A DNA stretch of 33,559 nt, taken from assembly GCA_016196465.1 (NCBI GenBank), contig JACPXR010000064.1, positions 1-33,559 of the forward strand. The letters run 5' to 3'. Under the pieces are notes generated by a model. It worked only from the letters and a program-made list of their open reading frames with translations, did no database searches and was not told the origin of the DNA. The position numbers and the translations under genes were made by a program. Source of the DNA: Candidatus Omnitrophota bacterium (GTDB lineage: Bacteria; Omnitrophota; Gorgyraeia; 1-14-0-20-64-10). Shown here piece after piece: positions 12,281 to 22,388 of the stretch; the stretch's first letter is position 1, and every line of letters starts with the position of its first letter.

Positions 12281-12329
12281 CCGTCACCTCCTTGGGCGAA
12301 TTGTACCATACCGTTTTAGGGGTCCCGCG

Positions 12330-12338
12330 TGCTAGAAT
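12330..12338 (+). promoter_or_regulatory. Extended -10 promoter (TGC TAGAAT)
   Basis: TGcTAGAAT, 4-7 nt upstream of candidate ATGs 12343/12346; no clear -35. Confidence 0.45.
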
Positions 12339-12345
12339 CTGCATG

Positions 12346-12723
12346 ATGAAGTTTTCCCCGCATTGTTTCATGCTGGCTTTCTGGCTCCTGGCAATGGGCG
12401 CTGCCCCGGCGCGGGCCGAGGAGGCGCTCTCTCTCCAGCGGCAGATCGAGGCGGCGGAGAAGCTCGACGGCGAAATCGCCCAGGCGACCGAGGAGTTGAA
12501 GAAGGCCCCCTCTCCCGCCGAACGCAGTCGCCTGGAGGGGAAGATCCGGGAGCTTCAGGCCAGGCAGGAGATCCTCCTCGATCAGCTCGAGGAAGTGGTG
12601 GGACCTCTGCCGCCGAGAGTCCGGCGAGAGTCCCCGATCCCTCTTGAGCAGCAGCTCAAAGGCCTGGAAAGGCGTCACGAGACCACCCTCGACAACGATG
12701 CCCAGCGCCGCTCCTCGCAATAG
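12346..12723 (+). CDS. Small exported coiled-coil hypothetical protein
   Basis: Signal peptide MKFSPHCFMLAFWLLAMGAAPARA; charged coiled coil LQRQIEAAEKLDGEIAQATEELKK; ATG 12343 is an alternative start. Confidence 0.6.
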   Translation: MKFSPHCFMLAFWLLAMGAAPARAEEALSLQRQIEAAEKLDGEIAQATEELKKAPSPAERSRLEGKIRELQARQEILLDQLEEVVGPLPPRVRRESPIPLEQQLKGLERRHETTLDNDAQRRSSQ

Positions 12724-13771
12724 GGTCCGCTTCATCCTCTTCTTGATTTCGTTTCTGGCGGCGTTTCCCCTCCCTTCCGCGAAGGCCCTGGAGCCCTCCG
12801 AAAGGCCCTCCGCCGACAGCGAAGCGGCAGAGCGGACCGCGCTCTTTATCGGGCTTCTCAAGCGTAGGGCCCAGCGGCTTCTCGAGGCCAGGCGGGAACC
12901 GCCTCCTCCCCGGATGAACGTCTCGGCGGGGATTTCGGAGGGGTACGAGAGCAACGTCAACTTGGACGGGGCGAGGAAGGGGGATTACTTCACGGAGGAG
13001 AGCTTCAATTTTGTTGTTCGTCCGATTCTGCTGTCATGGCTGAACGGGGAACTCTCCCACAGCTTGCTCTTGACCCACTTTCAGGAGTTGACCGACAGCA
13101 ACCTCTGGATGAACATCTTCACCGGAGGAATTCAGTTCCAGCCGAAGCAGCTCCTCCGGCTTGACCTGGGAGCGGAGTACGGGATCCTCAACTTCCCCTA
13201 CAGTTCGGACAGCAGCTTCTTCGATCAGCGGGCCAGAGCGCATCTGGCCCTCGCGCAGACCCCCTGGCTCACCCACAAGATCGGCTGGACCTACCAGCTC
13301 AGGGAATACGACACCCGGAAGGCCCGCGACTCCAGCAACAATCAGCTTCCCGGCGTCAACCGCGAGGACCAGCGGCACATTTTTCTCTATGAAGCTCAGG
13401 TGCGGGTCCGCAAGGCCTCCGCCAGGATCTCAGGGGAATTTTACCGGAACTTTTCCAATGAGCAGTTTCAGGAGTATTACGATTGGGAGAACATCAAGCT
13501 CCGGGCCACCCTGACGCGGATCTTCTCGCCCCGGTGGTTTGGGACTTTCAGCGGCAGCTTCGAGAGGAAGAACTACGAAAGAAGGTCCGTCCCCGCCATT
13601 GACATCTCCGAGCGGGACAACCTCTACACCTTGGCGGGTTCTGCGATCTACTCCTTGAATTCCAACGTGAGCTTCACCTACTCCCTGACCTACCGATACC
13701 AGGACTCCAACGACCCGCGGTTGGACTTCACCGATTGGATTCAACAGGTCGGGGTGACGGTAGGATTCTAA
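12698..13771 (+). CDS. Predicted outer-membrane beta-barrel protein
   Basis: Signal peptide RFILFLISFLAAFPLPSAKA; alternating strands rich in aromatics ending SNVSFTYSLTYRYQDSN..WIQQVGVTVGF (C-terminal F). Confidence 0.75.
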   Translation: MPSAAPRNRVRFILFLISFLAAFPLPSAKALEPSERPSADSEAAERTALFIGLLKRRAQRLLEARREPPPPRMNVSAGISEGYESNVNLDGARKGDYFTEESFNFVVRPILLSWLNGELSHSLLLTHFQELTDSNLWMNIFTGGIQFQPKQLLRLDLGAEYGILNFPYSSDSSFFDQRARAHLALAQTPWLTHKIGWTYQLREYDTRKARDSSNNQLPGVNREDQRHIFLYEAQVRVRKASARISGEFYRNFSNEQFQEYYDWENIKLRATLTRIFSPRWFGTFSGSFERKNYERRSVPAIDISERDNLYTLAGSAIYSLNSNVSFTYSLTYRYQDSNDPRLDFTDWIQQVGVTVGF

Positions 13772-13782
13772 GGGGAGGGACT

Positions 13783-14649
13783 TTATTTCTTCGACTTCTT
13801 TTCGGCTTTCTCTTCCGCTTTTTCCTCAGCCTTCTCGGCCTTGGCCTCCACCTTCTCCGCCGCCTTCTCGGCCTTGGCCTCCACCTTCTCCGCCGCCTTC
13901 TCGGCCTTGGCCTCCACCTTCTCCGCCGCCTTCTCGGCCTTGGCTTCCACCTTCTCCGCCGCCTTCTCGGCCTTGGCCTCCACCTTCTCCGCCGCCTTCT
14001 CGGCCTTGGCTTCGGCTCTCTCAGCGGCCTTCTGGCTGAGCCGCTCGGCGGCTGAGTCGATCCTCGCCTCCAGCTTGGCCTCCATCTTGGCATCGAGCCG
14101 GTCCCCCACGTTCTCCTTGGAGAAGTTCTGTTCAACCTTTTCGAGCTGCCGCTCCATGGCCCGCTCGTGCGCGTCCAGGGAGGCATCGGAGACCCGTCCG
14201 ATCCTCTCCGCGACCTTGCTCTCAAAGCTGGCGAGCTGAGCGATGGAGGACCTCAGTTCGTTCTCATAGCCGGTTCCCGGACCGGAGTAGACGTCCAACG
14301 CCAGGGCCACCCCCGGTTCGTCCATGGCCCGGGCCACCTTGAACTGTTCCTGAACGAAGGCGGCATCCACCGCGTCCAAGGCGATCGTTCCGTCCCGGGT
14401 GACCAGGTACTCCTGAAGGAGTTCGGGCAGGGATTCCCGCATGGCTTGGGCCAGCTTCCGGCTGCCGGATCTCTCCTCCTGGGCGATGATCATCTCCGCC
14501 TGGTAGCGGAGCTCCAGGGCCTCGGTGGCCCCATCGGCGGCAAAGGAAGGGTTGGCCAGATAAAGGAAAGAAAGGGCCAGCACGGATGCGCCGGCGCCGG
14601 ACAGAAGTCCGTTCCTTTGGATCGCGCTGCGGAACGGGTTTAACCTCAT
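13783..14649 (-). CDS. Exported alpha-helical protein with C-terminal 11-residue (AAEKVEAKAEK) repeats
   Basis: Signal peptide VLALSFLYLANPSFAADG; SD AAGGAGG (14656-14662) 6 nt before ATG; Ala/Glu/Lys hendecad repeats. Confidence 0.8.
   Translation of the reverse strand: MRLNPFRSAIQRNGLLSGAGASVLALSFLYLANPSFAADGATEALELRYQAEMIIAQEERSGSRKLAQAMRESLPELLQEYLVTRDGTIALDAVDAAFVQEQFKVARAMDEPGVALALDVYSGPGTGYENELRSSIAQLASFESKVAERIGRVSDASLDAHERAMERQLEKVEQNFSKENVGDRLDAKMEAKLEARIDSAAERLSQKAAERAEAKAEKAAEKVEAKAEKAAEKVEAKAEKAAEKVEAKAEKAAEKVEAKAEKAAEKVEAKAEKAEEKAEEKAEKKSKK
13831..13995. repeat. 33-bp tandem repeat, 5 near-identical units plus degenerate flanking units
   Basis: cttctcggccttggcctccaccttctccgccgc at 13831, 13864, 13897, 13930 (one c>t), 13963. 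Confidence 0.95.
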
Positions 14650-14655
14650 CTTCTT

Positions 14656-14765
14656 CCTCCTTCTCTGGCAACTGGCTGCCCCGTCCTTCTTCCACTTTCC
14701 CTTCCGGGGCCCTCTAGTTTTGCGTCCCCCGCTTGCGCGGGGTTTGCCCTGATACCGAAGTACTT
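14656..14765 (-). ncRNA. Cyclic-di-GMP-I (GEMM-I) riboswitch
   Basis: Minus-strand RNA: AGGGCAAACC-CCGC-GCAA-GCGG-GGGACGCAAA...GGCAGCCAGUUGCC; matches GEMM-I conserved core (AGGGCAAACC, GNRA tetraloop stem, GGGACGCAAA) and the second conserved hairpin GGCA-GCCAGU-UGCC. Confidence 0.9.
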
Positions 14766-14779
14766 GTGCTTCTACTGTA

Positions 14780-14809
14780 ACTATACGTTCCCCAGGCAGC
14801 AGGAAACAA
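14780..14809 (-). promoter_or_regulatory. sigma70-type promoter for the riboswitch transcript
   Basis: Minus strand TTGTTT (14809-14804), 18-nt spacer, TATAGT (14785-14780). Confidence 0.5.
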
Positions 14810-15788: not shown

Positions 15789-15971
15789 GTGCAAATGGAT
15801 AGATTGATGACCATAGATGAAGTCGCTCAGTACATGCAGGTCAGCCGCTTCACCGTCTACCGGTTGGCCAAGAGGAACTCTCTGCCCGGGACGAAGATCG
15901 GACGGCAGTGGCGCTTCCAGAAGGAGGAGATCGACCGATGGGTGAGAGAACAGCTTCCAAGAGAATCGTAA
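15789..15971 (+). CDS. Excisionase-type (HTH_17/MerR-like) helix-turn-helix protein
   Basis: LMTIDEVAQYMQVSRFTVYRLAKRNSLPGTKIGRQWRFQKEEIDRWV; start GTG 15789 or ATG 15795. Confidence 0.85.
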   Translation: MQMDRLMTIDEVAQYMQVSRFTVYRLAKRNSLPGTKIGRQWRFQKEEIDRWVREQLPRES

Positions 15972-17422
15972 ATCCCAACCCGCTTCACCGCTCACTGTTG
16001 CCCAAGGGCTTGAAGGAGAAGCTCATCGTGGCTTTCTCCCTGATGTCGGTGGTGCCGCTTCTGATCCTGGGCCATGTCCTGACGAATTACGTTTTCCCTT
16101 ATCTGGGACCGGTGGGGGATCTGTCCCTGGTGGCCGGGCTGGCGGTCTTGATCGCCTTCCTCGGCTACGCCGTGGCGAAGGGGATGGTCAACCCCGTCAT
16201 CAAGCTGGCGGCGGAGGCCAAGGCGATCGCCGAGGGGCACCTCGAACGCCAGGTGGAGGTGAGGTCGCCGGATGAAGTGGGGACCCTGGGATCGGCCCTC
16301 AATCAGATCACCCAGCGGGTCCGGGAGAACATGGCCCAGCTCCGGGTGTATGGGGAGCAGACCAAGCACATGAACCTCGAGATCAACCGCAGGATCCTCA
16401 CCATGTCCCATCTTCTGCAGGTGAGCAACCTCATCACCCAGCAGGCGAAGGTGGAAGAGGTCACCACCTTCATCCTCGAGAAGCTCGCCCAGACGGAGGA
16501 GGCGGAGTTGAACTGTTACCTGGAGCCGACCGGAGAACCCTCGGCCTTCTTGGTCCGGGGGGCGCAGGGGATGGATTCCACTCAGGTGTCGGCCCTCTTC
16601 AATTCCAAGGTGGTGGCTCCGTGGCTGGCGCGGATCCTTGAGGAACGCCGGGTCCTGGTGATTGACGGGGAGCGGGCCCAGTCGGAGGAGGGAAAGCTCT
16701 GCCAGCAGCTTTTCGGGATGACGAACGCCGTCTGCCAGCCGCTCGTCTCCATCGGCCATGGAATCGGGATCCTCATTTCGGCCAACCGGAAGGCAGATTT
16801 CACCTTCACGGAAGACTGCCTGGAGCTTTTGAAGGTTTTCGCCAGACAGATGTCGATCGCCATTGAGAACGACTTGCTCTCGAAGCGGGCGGAGGAGCTC
16901 AAGGTCATCGATGAGCTCACCGGGCTTTACAACGCCGGCTACGTGAAGAACCGCCTGGAGGAGGAGGTCCGCCGGGCGATCCGGTATCACCGCCCCTGCT
17001 CCCTGATCCTGATGAACCTGGACCATTTCAAGCGGTTTCAGGATCTCTACGGGGGGTTGGCCGCGGAGGGGGCTTTGAAGCAGGTCGCGGATCTTCTCCG
17101 GGAGCAGGTGACGGAAGTGGACCGGATCGGCCGGATGGGGGCGGATGAATTCGCCCTGATCCTTCCGGAGAAGAACAAGCGGGAGGCGATCGATCTGGCC
17201 GAGGCGATCCGCCGGCGGGTGGAGGGGCATGCCTTCACGAACGGCAGCCGAGCCATCGCCGGGGTCCTGACCTTTTCCGGAGGCGTCAGCGAGAACCCCC
17301 TCGACGGCTCCTCCGGCGAGGAGCTGATGGCGAAAGCCCTCGAGGCGATGAAGCAGGCCAAGGGGCAGGGGAAGAACCGGGTCATTGCCAGCGGCCTTGT
17401 CCCGGTGCAGGTGAAACGATGA
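15938..17422 (+). CDS. Membrane HAMP-GAF-GGDEF protein with degenerate GGDEF (GADEF)
   Basis: ATG 15938 with AAGGAGG; two TM helices, HAMP, GAF, DELTGLYNAGYVKNRLEEE..MNLDHFKRFQDLYG..DRIGRMGADEFALILP. Confidence 0.9.
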   Translation: MGERTASKRIVNPNPLHRSLLPKGLKEKLIVAFSLMSVVPLLILGHVLTNYVFPYLGPVGDLSLVAGLAVLIAFLGYAVAKGMVNPVIKLAAEAKAIAEGHLERQVEVRSPDEVGTLGSALNQITQRVRENMAQLRVYGEQTKHMNLEINRRILTMSHLLQVSNLITQQAKVEEVTTFILEKLAQTEEAELNCYLEPTGEPSAFLVRGAQGMDSTQVSALFNSKVVAPWLARILEERRVLVIDGERAQSEEGKLCQQLFGMTNAVCQPLVSIGHGIGILISANRKADFTFTEDCLELLKVFARQMSIAIENDLLSKRAEELKVIDELTGLYNAGYVKNRLEEEVRRAIRYHRPCSLILMNLDHFKRFQDLYGGLAAEGALKQVADLLREQVTEVDRIGRMGADEFALILPEKNKREAIDLAEAIRRRVEGHAFTNGSRAIAGVLTFSGGVSENPLDGSSGEELMAKALEAMKQAKGQGKNRVIASGLVPVQVKR

Positions 17423-18491: not shown

Positions 18492-18950
18492 ATGGTGACC
18501 CCTCCTCGGCGGGTGATCGCGAAACAATTGGGAGAGCTCCTCATGGAGCGGAAGGTGATCACATCGGACCAGCTCCATGAGGGGCTCAAGGTCCAGCAGT
18601 CCAAGGGGGGTCTCCTCGGCCAGATCCTCGTGAGCTTGGGCTACGCCACCGAAGAGGCGATCGCCCAGGCCCTCACGGCCCAGTACGGATTTCCTTATCT
18701 TCCCCTGAAGCATTACACGATCGAGGGGGAGCTGATTCGCCTGATCCCTGAGAACGTCGCCCGCCAGTACTGCCTCGTGGCCGTGGACCGGATCGGGGAC
18801 ACCCTGACTGTGGCGATGGCCGACCCGCTGAATTCCAACGCGGTGGAAGACATCGAGATGCTGACCCATTGCTCGGTGCAGATTTTCGTCTCCACGATGA
18901 GCGACGTGGCGGAGACGATCCGCCAGCACTACGGAGAGAACCATGGGTGA
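18492..18950 (+). CDS. Stand-alone GspE/MshE N-terminal (MshEN-like) domain protein
   Basis: QLGELLMERKVITSDQLHEGLKVQQSKGGLLGQILVSLGYATEEAIAQALTAQYGFPYLPL..DTLTVAMADPLN; no ATPase domain, stop at 18950. Confidence 0.85.
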   Translation: MVTPPRRVIAKQLGELLMERKVITSDQLHEGLKVQQSKGGLLGQILVSLGYATEEAIAQALTAQYGFPYLPLKHYTIEGELIRLIPENVARQYCLVAVDRIGDTLTVAMADPLNSNAVEDIEMLTHCSVQIFVSTMSDVAETIRQHYGENHG

Positions 18951-20679
18951 GGGGGCCGTCTCCGCCAAGGGAACCCGGGACAAGCTCAGCACCACCTTGT
19001 GCGCCCAGGGGCTCCTGAAGCCCGAAGACCTGGAGAGGGCCATCAACCTCCAGAAGGAGCGGGGGGGCTCTTTGAGCCAGGTCCTCATCGAGCTGGGGCT
19101 GGTCGATTCGAAGACCCTCACCTCCGTCTTGAGCCGGACCCTGCGCATCCCGACGATCAGTCTTTCCAAGATGGAGCTGGATCCGGAGTTGACGAAGCTG
19201 ATTCCCCGGAAGCTCGCCTTCCACTATCAGATCGTTCCGATCTCGCGGCTGGGGACCCAGTTGACCGTGGCCGTCTATGACCCGATGAACATCCTCGCGA
19301 TGGACCACCTTTCCCAGACGACCGGCCTCATCCTCACCCCCATGATCACGACCCGGGAGGAGATGCAGGAGGGGCTGCGCCGGCTCTACGGGGGCGTCAT
19401 CGTCGACACGATCGAGGAGCTCAAGGAGAAGGCGGTCTCGGCGGCAAGAATCCAGGTTTTGACCCAGGAGGAACAGGCCTCTCACGCCGAGAAGGTGGAA
19501 GACCTGGTCCGCCTCACCCAGGAAGTCCCCGTCGTCAAGGTGACCAACGCCGTTCTCACCCAGGGGGTGAACTTGAAATCCAGCGACATCCTCGTGGAGC
19601 CCTTTGAGAAGAAGCTCCGAATCCGGTACCGGGTGGACGGGGTGTTCCGGGAGGCCGAACCTCTGCCGGTGGCGATGCACACGGGGATCGTCTCCCGGAT
19701 CAAAGTGATGTCGAACCTCAACATCGCGGAGCACCGCCTTCCCCAGGATGGCCGGATCAAATTCGGGGTGGGGGGCCGGGACGTTGATTTCCGCGTCTCG
19801 GTGATTCCTTCCTATTACGGAGAGAAGGTCTGCATGCGCGTCCTCGACAAGAGTCAGGTGATGCTGGAGATCGGGAGGCTGGGTTTCGAGAAAGAGCCGA
19901 TGGAGATCTTGAAGGAGGCGATGCGACATCCCCACGGGATGGTCCTCGTCACCGGCCCCACCGGAAGCGGCAAGACGACGACCCTGTACTCCCTTTTGAA
20001 GCTCTCGGACCGGCCCGACCGGAATCTCGTCACCGTCGAAGACCCGATCGAGTACGACATGCCGGGCGTCAACCAGGTGGCCGTCCGGCCCGACATCGGG
20101 CTCACCTTCGCGGCGGCGCTGCGCTCGATCCTCCGGCAGGACCCCAACATCATCATGGTCGGGGAGATCCGCGATGGGGAAACCGCCGACATCGCCGTGA
20201 AGGCGGCCCTGACCGGGCACCTGGTCCACTCCACTCTGCACACGAACGACGCCATCGGCGCCGTGGCCCGCCTCGTCAACATGGGGATTGAGCCGTATCT
20301 GGTGGCTTCCTCCGTTCTCTTGGTGGGGGCCCAGCGGCTCCCCCGGAAGGTCTGCCCGGCCTGCAAGGAGACGGTTCATCCCCCCAAGGAGCTCATGGAA
20401 CGGTTTGAGCTGCCCGCCAACGGCGCCTACCGCAAGGGGAAGGGCTGCCCCGAATGCCGGGGAACCGGCTTGGACGGCCGGATCGGGCTTCTGGAGTGCG
20501 TTCCGCTGATTCCCCCTCTGCGGCGGATGGTGGCGGAGGGGGCTTCCTCGATGAAGATCAGGGATGAAGCGAGGGCCAACGGTTTTCTTTCTCTTCGGGA
20601 CCACGCGGTGGCCAAGGCGGCGGCGGGGGTGATTCCGCTTGAGGAAGTGGCCAGGACCACCGTGGGCTATCAGGAGTGA
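18943..20679 (+). CDS. pilB: Type IV pilus assembly ATPase PilB (copy 1)
   Basis: GPTGSGKTTTLYSLLK, VTVEDPIEYDMPGVNQVAV, MVGEIRDGETADIAVKAALTGH, tetracysteine CPACK..CPECRGTG. Confidence 0.95.
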   Translation: MGEGAVSAKGTRDKLSTTLCAQGLLKPEDLERAINLQKERGGSLSQVLIELGLVDSKTLTSVLSRTLRIPTISLSKMELDPELTKLIPRKLAFHYQIVPISRLGTQLTVAVYDPMNILAMDHLSQTTGLILTPMITTREEMQEGLRRLYGGVIVDTIEELKEKAVSAARIQVLTQEEQASHAEKVEDLVRLTQEVPVVKVTNAVLTQGVNLKSSDILVEPFEKKLRIRYRVDGVFREAEPLPVAMHTGIVSRIKVMSNLNIAEHRLPQDGRIKFGVGGRDVDFRVSVIPSYYGEKVCMRVLDKSQVMLEIGRLGFEKEPMEILKEAMRHPHGMVLVTGPTGSGKTTTLYSLLKLSDRPDRNLVTVEDPIEYDMPGVNQVAVRPDIGLTFAAALRSILRQDPNIIMVGEIRDGETADIAVKAALTGHLVHSTLHTNDAIGAVARLVNMGIEPYLVASSVLLVGAQRLPRKVCPACKETVHPPKELMERFELPANGAYRKGKGCPECRGTGLDGRIGLLECVPLIPPLRRMVAEGASSMKIRDEARANGFLSLRDHAVAKAAAGVIPLEEVARTTVGYQE

Positions 20680-20687
20680 TCTTTAAG

Positions 20688-22388
20688 ATGGCCGAATCGT
20701 TAAGACAAAAAATGGTCGACCTCCTCGTGGAGTCACGGGGGATTGACCGGGCGAAGATCGAGGGGCTTCTCAAATCCCCTCGGGCCAGGGAGAAAGGCCT
20801 GGGGGCCCTTCTGGTGGAGGAGGGCCTCATTGAGGAGCCCGACCTCATGTCCACGCTGGCCAAGGGGCTGGCGATTCCGCCGATCAGCCTCAGCAAGGTC
20901 CGGATCGATCCCTCCCTGGCGGAGCTGGTTCCGGAGCGGATCGCCCGTCAGCACCGGCTGGTGCCGGTCTCCAAAATGGGCGCGCGCCTGTCGGTGGCGA
21001 TGTCCGATCCCTTGAACCTGCTCGCCCTGGATGATTTGACGACCCTCACCTCGCTCGAGGTGAGCCCGGTCATCTCCTCGGAGAAGGAGATCGAGGCGGC
21101 CATCCAACGGCTTTACCAGAAGCCGATTGAACAGCTCGAGGCGTTCCTGGAGAATCCCGAGACGGAATCGGGGGCCTCCGGCGCGGAGGAGGAGGTGGTG
21201 GAACTGACCGCCTTTGGGATGGAAGGCCGGAAGGCCCCCATCGTGAAGGTGGTGGACATGATGATCGCTGAGGCCCTCAGTTCCCGGGCCAGCGACATCC
21301 ATGTGGAGCCGTACGAGGATCACCTGCGGGTGCGCTACCGGATCGACGGAGCCCTTCTCGACGCCTTCCGCCTGCCCAGACGGCACCAGAACGCCTTCTT
21401 GACGCGGCTGAAGATCATGTCGAATCTGGACATCACGGAGAACCGCCTGCCTCAGGACGGACGGTTCAAGGTTCGGATGGACAACCGCGAGGTGGATTTC
21501 CGCGTGTCGGTCCTTCCGATCAGCTTCGGGAACAAGGTGGTTCTGCGGGCGCTCGACAAGAGCAACCTCTCGGTCGGGCTGGACCAGCTCGGGTTTCTGC
21601 CCGGTTCGCTGAATGCCTTCAAGAAGGCGGTCGCCAGGCCCTACGGGATGATCCTGGTCACCGGGCCCACGGGAAGCGGCAAGTCCACCACCCTGTATTC
21701 GGTTCTCGCTCAGATGAACGAGCCGGTCCGAAACATCATGACGATCGAAGATCCGGTGGAGTACCAGGTCGAGGGGGTCACGCAGGTCCAGGTGAACCCG
21801 GAGATTCAGCTCTCTTTCGCCAACGCCCTTCGGGCTTTTCTGCGCCAGGCGCCGGATGTGGTTCTGGTCGGGGAGATCCGGGACGGAGAGACCGCGGACA
21901 TCGCCATCAAGGCCTCTCTCACCGGACAGATCGTCCTCTCCACCCTCCACACGAACGACGCCTCAAGCGCCGTGACGCGCCTCATTGACATGGGGGTGGA
22001 TCCGTTTCTTCTGGCCTCCTCTCTTGTCTTTGTGGCGGCCCAGCGGCTCTGCCGGCAGGTCTGCCCCCGCTGCAAAGTTCCTGACGAAGCGGCCGGGCCC
22101 AAAGTCAAGGAACTGGGAGGGTCGGTGCCGAAGGGAACAGTTTTCTATAAAGGAAAGGGCTGCCCCTACTGCCGAAAGACCGGCTTCCGGGGCCGGTTCG
22201 CCATCCTGGAGGCGATGCTGGTGGACGACCGGATCCGGGAGATGATCATCGCCAAGAGGCCGCCGGATGAAATCAAAAGCTACGCGGTCTCGCAGGGGAT
22301 GCAGACCCTGCGCCAGGAGGGATGGGAGCATCTGTTGGGCGGGCGCACCTCGGTCGAGGAGGTGCTCCGGGTGACGGCGGAGGAGTGA
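20688..22388 (+). CDS. PilB/GspE-family ATPase (copy 2)
   Basis: GPTGSGKSTTLYSVLA, MTIEDPVEYQVEGVTQVQV, LVGEIRDGETADIAIKASLTGQ, CPRCK..CPYCRKTG; GTG 20676 is an alternative start. Confidence 0.93.
   Translation: MAESLRQKMVDLLVESRGIDRAKIEGLLKSPRAREKGLGALLVEEGLIEEPDLMSTLAKGLAIPPISLSKVRIDPSLAELVPERIARQHRLVPVSKMGARLSVAMSDPLNLLALDDLTTLTSLEVSPVISSEKEIEAAIQRLYQKPIEQLEAFLENPETESGASGAEEEVVELTAFGMEGRKAPIVKVVDMMIAEALSSRASDIHVEPYEDHLRVRYRIDGALLDAFRLPRRHQNAFLTRLKIMSNLDITENRLPQDGRFKVRMDNREVDFRVSVLPISFGNKVVLRALDKSNLSVGLDQLGFLPGSLNAFKKAVARPYGMILVTGPTGSGKSTTLYSVLAQMNEPVRNIMTIEDPVEYQVEGVTQVQVNPEIQLSFANALRAFLRQAPDVVLVGEIRDGETADIAIKASLTGQIVLSTLHTNDASSAVTRLIDMGVDPFLLASSLVFVAAQRLCRQVCPRCKVPDEAAGPKVKELGGSVPKGTVFYKGKGCPYCRKTGFRGRFAILEAMLVDDRIREMIIAKRPPDEIKSYAVSQGMQTLRQEGWEHLLGGRTSVEEVLRVTAEE

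Follow-up and report, generated by a model that had tools for sequence, protein, structure and literature searches.

Among the cyclic di-GMP (c-di-GMP) class I riboswitches (GEMM-I; Rfam RF01051), the best-studied member is Vc2, a translational OFF switch that depends chiefly on its closing helix P1 and masks a ribosome-binding site (RBS) distant from the aptamer (PMC9262584; PMC7371385). In the related switch Cd1, G11 has been equated with G20 of Vc2 and named as a selectivity factor (PMC9262584), and the role of the position equivalent to Vc2 G20 has also been described elsewhere (PMC6274999). In this study, we analyzed a 33,559-nucleotide (nt) stretch of DNA from a Candidatus Omnitrophota bacterium (GCA_016196465.1, contig JACPXR010000064.1; hereafter, the window), corresponding to contig C126 (assembly size, 1.41 Mb; completeness, 83%), in which a GEMM-I aptamer precedes P0001, a gene encoding an exported helical protein. 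We consider that this leader is probably a genuine c-di-GMP class I riboswitch controlling a single gene, that control is exerted by repression of translation, and that the product is an envelope protein, a joint reading to which we assign a probability of about 0.68.

When the whole window was searched with cmscan against all 4227 Rfam families, RF01051 (gathering score, 35 bits) was matched at positions 14758-14664 of the minus strand, over model positions 1-87 of 87, with 56.9 bits and E = 9.3e-9, and no other Rfam family reached its gathering score in the window. The match was recovered again in a whole-genome search. The initial annotation, which had placed a GEMM-I aptamer upstream of the gene and would have given it up if no significant covariance-model match was found, is thus in agreement with the model. 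Between CUUC (14760) and AUG (14649), its quoted leader is identical to the minus strand, and the AGGGCAAACC and GGGACGCAAA motifs it pointed out are present, as is a 6-bp stem (CCCCGC/GCGGGG) capped by a GCAA loop of the GNRA type. On the other hand, the model assigns GGCAGCCAGUUGCC, described there as a hairpin of its own, to the long P3 stem, of which it forms the 3' strand. The Shine-Dalgarno (SD) sequence AAGGAGG lies immediately 3' of the aptamer, as had been proposed (14656..14662, minus strand), 6 nt 5' of the start codon at 14649.

Regarding architecture, the alignment showed a GNRA-capped P2 stem-loop (CCCCGC-GCAA-GCGGGG; 14727..14742, minus strand) and a P3 stem formed by AACU/AGUU and GGGCC/GGC-CC (14670..14719, minus strand). 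Together with the core GGCAAA..GACGCAAA, both stems are kept in the five relatives described below. The 11-nt GAAA tetraloop receptor segment of the consensus (CUAAG...UAUG) is deleted in the window, where the P3 loop is enlarged, and the tetraloops are GCAA or GUAA, in place of GAAA, in all six leaders. This canonical P3 receptor is typical of RF01051 aptamers, albeit non-universal, and hence does not define the class.

Relatives of P0001, with identities of 44-58%, were found in five further genomes (G002, G003, G010, G281, and G387), the named relatives with the same locus being Candidatus Omnitrophota metagenome-assembled genomes from groundwater, so that the gene occurs in 6 of the 392 genomes of the class. 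These six genomes span three family-level groups (f1, f2, and f31). In every one of them an RF01051 aptamer (52-64 bits) stands immediately upstream of the gene, and a convergent beta-barrel gene lies downstream, so that the pairing of switch and gene is an inherited one. The receiver genes found upstream are common to f1 and f2 only; since the upstream genes of G281 and G387 are unrelated, the inherited unit comprises the riboswitch, the helical protein, and the barrel.

With respect to the mode of control, the aptamer ends 14 nt from the start codon in the window, and over the six leaders this distance is 13-16 nt in four and 4 nt in two, which leaves no room for a terminator in any of them; no terminator was found between aptamer and start codon in the window, where a transcription-terminating riboswitch would have one. 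Among 31 leaders from the same family, a set that includes three of the P0001 group, 16 showed a terminator-like hairpin. The initial annotation had drawn P1 between a 5' CUUC (14757..14760, minus strand) and a 3' GAAG (14660..14663, minus strand) that has three bases in common with the SD sequence. This putative helix is compatible with the relatives, in which other letters still pair: the arms are CUUC/GAAG (window), CUUC/GAGG (G002), CCUUC/GAAGG (G003), and CCUC/GAGG (G010), whereas G281 pairs GCUAUC with GAUGGC, whose 3' strand includes the AUG, and G387 forms an interrupted 8-pair helix (GCGU+UUUC/GAAG+ACGC) spanning the AUG. Both strands thus change in letters while the 5' arm can still pair with the RBS strand, and the 3' arm overlies the RBS or start codon in 6/6 leaders.

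Shuffling of the 5' arm gave p values of 0.13 (window), 0.12 (G002), 0.009 (G003), 0.18 (G010), 0.16 (G281), and 0.08 (G387), with a combined Fisher p of ~0.003 that is optimistic because the leaders are related and not independent. In unconstrained partition-function ensembles, pairing of the arm with the RBS appeared in G002, G010, G281, and G387 (3 to 8 expected pairs) and was weak in the window and G003, the energy of the ligand being outside the model. Overall, these comparisons lend modest support to P1 across the leaders. Binding of c-di-GMP would stabilize P1 and, as its 3' strand holds part of the SD sequence (or the start codon, in two relatives), ribosomes would be kept off, so that P0001 would be made mainly at low c-di-GMP and might act together with the convergent barrel protein, either at the outer membrane or in the periplasm. 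Since Vc2 is a translational OFF switch acting through P1, and the RBS lies here within P1, translational repression by c-di-GMP is favored and, given a working aptamer, we regard it as likely.

Several points weigh against this interpretation. The window P1 has only four pairs, its best duplex reaches -5.2 kcal/mol (equaled by 13% of shuffles), and the ensemble holds 0.97 expected pairs, with half of the SD sequence staying free; because this helix is short and statistically weak, repression at translation is proposed here as an inference. The ligand response and the effect on expression are predictions from sequence, the partnership of the barrel with P0001 is suggested by synteny and co-occurrence only, and the direction of a switch is not readable from sequence alone. 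The main rival is an ON switch, in which c-di-GMP would free the RBS or stabilize the mRNA; the protein would then be produced when c-di-GMP is high, in keeping with a role in adhesion or in the envelope. Both ON and OFF switches are known among GEMM-I aptamers (PMC9262584; PMC6366702), the window P1 is weak, and CUUC could instead pair with a short GAAG upstream. However, such a switch is at odds with the 3' arm, which falls on the RBS or the start codon in each of the six leaders, and the upstream anti-P1 strand (GAAG...CUUC), apparent in several leaders, was rejected as a P1 competitor, with a Fisher p of 0.34 over the six. We therefore consider an ON switch unlikely, although it deserves more weight than the two alternatives below.

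A decayed or non-switching remnant would account for the enlarged P3 loop, the lack of a tetraloop receptor, and the weak P1, and the window aptamer does score below most aptamers in the same family, with its 11-nt receptor deleted; but the receptor-less architecture is kept, together with intact core residues, in relatives belonging to other genera and families, and this makes decay very improbable. Similarly, the family match alone does not decide the ligand, since RF01051 includes both c-di-GMP aptamers and the GEMM-Ib subset sensing 3',3'-cyclic GMP-AMP (3',3'-cGAMP), the latter having A at the equivalent of Vc2 G20. In the window this position (14748, minus strand; model position 11), located by the cmscan alignment and PMC9262584, is G, and it is G and not A in 6/6 leaders. 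Both adjoining bases are also G, and thus the assignment to c-di-GMP does not depend on a one-base numbering error. On this base, sensing of 3',3'-cGAMP was rejected, and we hold it to be the least probable of the rivals. Hence, a c-di-GMP switch repressing translation of P0001 is the reading that we retain.

The regulated gene (13783..14649, minus strand), delimited as an open reading frame, encodes 288 amino acids, with a signal peptide at ~1-37 (assigned by eye, with cleavage close to SFA-AD), a conserved domain at ~39-140, and a charged helical tail. The domain motif DGA.EAL.LR...LP.LL.EYL..RD..IA.D is conserved in the relatives, while each of them has a tail of different length and composition, that of G003 not being Lys/Glu-rich at all, so the N-terminal domain is the defining part of the protein. 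The initial annotation had described an exported, mostly helical protein of no recognized family, and the searches bear this description out: P0001 had no relative in the PDB and no Pfam or NCBIfam match over curated cut-offs, and its AlphaFold2 model is all helical, with low confidence (mean predicted local distance difference test score, pLDDT, 57.9; predicted template modeling score, pTM, 0.23). From these features, P0001 is inferred to be an exported envelope protein. Two weak resemblances, to Apolipoprotein A1/A4/E (PF01442; 18.9 bits vs a cut-off of 90) and to NCBIfam GvpQ (far under its cut-off), were rejected, both being confined to the charged repeat. This region contains 5.5 copies of a 33-bp repeat coding for the 11-residue AEKAAEKVEAK (13829..14010, minus strand; Tandem Repeats Finder); the in-frame copies are near-identical (98% matches), suggesting recent expansion.

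The convergent neighbor (12644..13771, plus strand) is a beta-barrel outer-membrane protein of the BBP2_2 family (Pfam PF10082, 34.4 bits; cut-off, 23.7). Orthologues scoring >490 bits occurred in all six P0001-bearing genomes and in no other, followed by a more distant barrel at 359 bits in G375 and by paralogues at ~170 bits; the G375 contig ends ~270 bp past the barrel gene, which leaves its neighbor out of the comparison. A match to the PEP-CTERM-associated family TIGR03016 was rejected (17.2 bits vs a cut-off of 90.85), and thus a PEP-CTERM role of the barrel is not established. Just upstream of the barrel and co-oriented with it, a short exported coiled-coil-like protein is encoded in the window (12292-12723, plus strand), and likewise in G375 (L052, 1007-1489, plus strand). 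More tentatively, the locus might represent a compact Omnitrophota GEMM-I variant in which the SD sequence or start codon lies inside the closing helix of the aptamer, and which therefore has no separate expression platform, controlling a new lineage-restricted envelope module composed of a periplasmic helical protein and a tail-to-tail beta-barrel.

A promoter had also been placed just upstream of the aptamer, and it is convincing in part. Its -10-like hexamer, TATAGT (14780..14785, minus strand), is good, lies 21 nt upstream of the aptamer, and recurs as TATAGT in G002 at equal distance and as TATACT in G010 one base further. The -35-like TTGTTT (14804..14809, minus strand; 18-nt spacer), seen in the window sequence, is poor, with 3/6 consensus bases, and for this reason a consensus promoter scan returned no promoter in the leader.

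In relation to genomic context, the window genome has five RF01051 matches, four exceeding the cut-off and one falling short of it, and all nine genomes of the family carry such aptamers (4 to 14 matches each). Moreover, the window genome has 10 GGDEF, 1 EAL, and 11 PilZ matches, being therefore well equipped for c-di-GMP signaling. A type IV pilus cluster is encoded on the plus strand of the window, with a PilT-like ATPase, two PilB-like ATPases with MshEN, a PilC-like T2SSF protein, PilM, and a secretin. MshEN domains bind c-di-GMP in some pilus ATPases. At 18492-22388 (plus strand), the window encodes a stand-alone MshEN-domain protein and the two PilB-like ATPases, with one MshEN domain each, through which c-di-GMP may reach the pilus directly. 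Upstream of the riboswitch lie genes for two receiver-only response regulators, and between these and the pilus cluster a HAMP-GAF-GGDEF protein (15908-17422, plus strand) is encoded; its active-site motif is GADEF, against GPDEF (G010/L044) and GAEEF (G003/L045) in relatives, and the protein may be a degenerate diguanylate cyclase serving as a c-di-GMP sensor and not as a producer.

Other GEMM-I loci were observed in the family. In six genomes (L001, L006, L011, L012, L023, and L024; about 1501-1900, riboswitch strand), a small protein bearing the motif KQVHRVVTFLDR.QVDYLDK.GKDALFSTG is preceded by an aptamer that has a strong terminator, and represents a second conserved target of these riboswitches. 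At L013 and L032 (G005:C27:38641-38900), tandem aptamers ~110 nt apart, with a terminator-like hairpin after each, stand before one exported alanine/valine-rich protein. Additionally, at L017 (G006:C136) an aptamer lies directly upstream of a secretin-like (PilQ-type) gene, named by eye, with an SD sequence and a GTG 33 nt after the aptamer, which would tie c-di-GMP to pilus assembly in a related genome.

Hardly any Omnitrophota have been cultured, and the outputs of their c-di-GMP signaling are little known; in this regard, a conserved riboswitch-gene pair offers a concrete and testable c-di-GMP output, whose aptamer is amenable to in vitro assays that need no culture of the organism. In a literature search of partial coverage, we found no paper joining riboswitches and Omnitrophota. 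The RNA class and the kind of control are already known, and association with pili and envelope genes is typical, whereas novelty, as far as could be checked, lies in the target family, in its conservation within a restricted lineage, and in the compact layout that sets the RBS within P1.

Compared with RF01051 as a class, the window aptamer has the full-length match over cut-off, the GNRA-capped P2, the conserved core, and the selectivity G, and differs in its receptor-less P3 with an enlarged loop and in the GCAA/GUAA loops of all six leaders. As to the barrel, the neighbor resembles the BBP2_2/PEP-CTERM-associated barrels in exceeding the PF10082 cut-off, while falling under that of TIGR03016. 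Clostridioides difficile Cd1 (OFF) and the Geobacter metallireducens pilM switch (ON) belong to the same aptamer class but act through terminators (PMC9262584), unlike the window leader, in which aptamer and start codon have none between them. Finally, a close counterpart is Vc2 (tfoY, Vibrio cholerae), of the same aptamer class and with the translational OFF control through P1 that we propose here too; in the window, the 3' strand of the proposed P1 takes in the RBS, a more compact arrangement, and the target is an unrelated exported protein.
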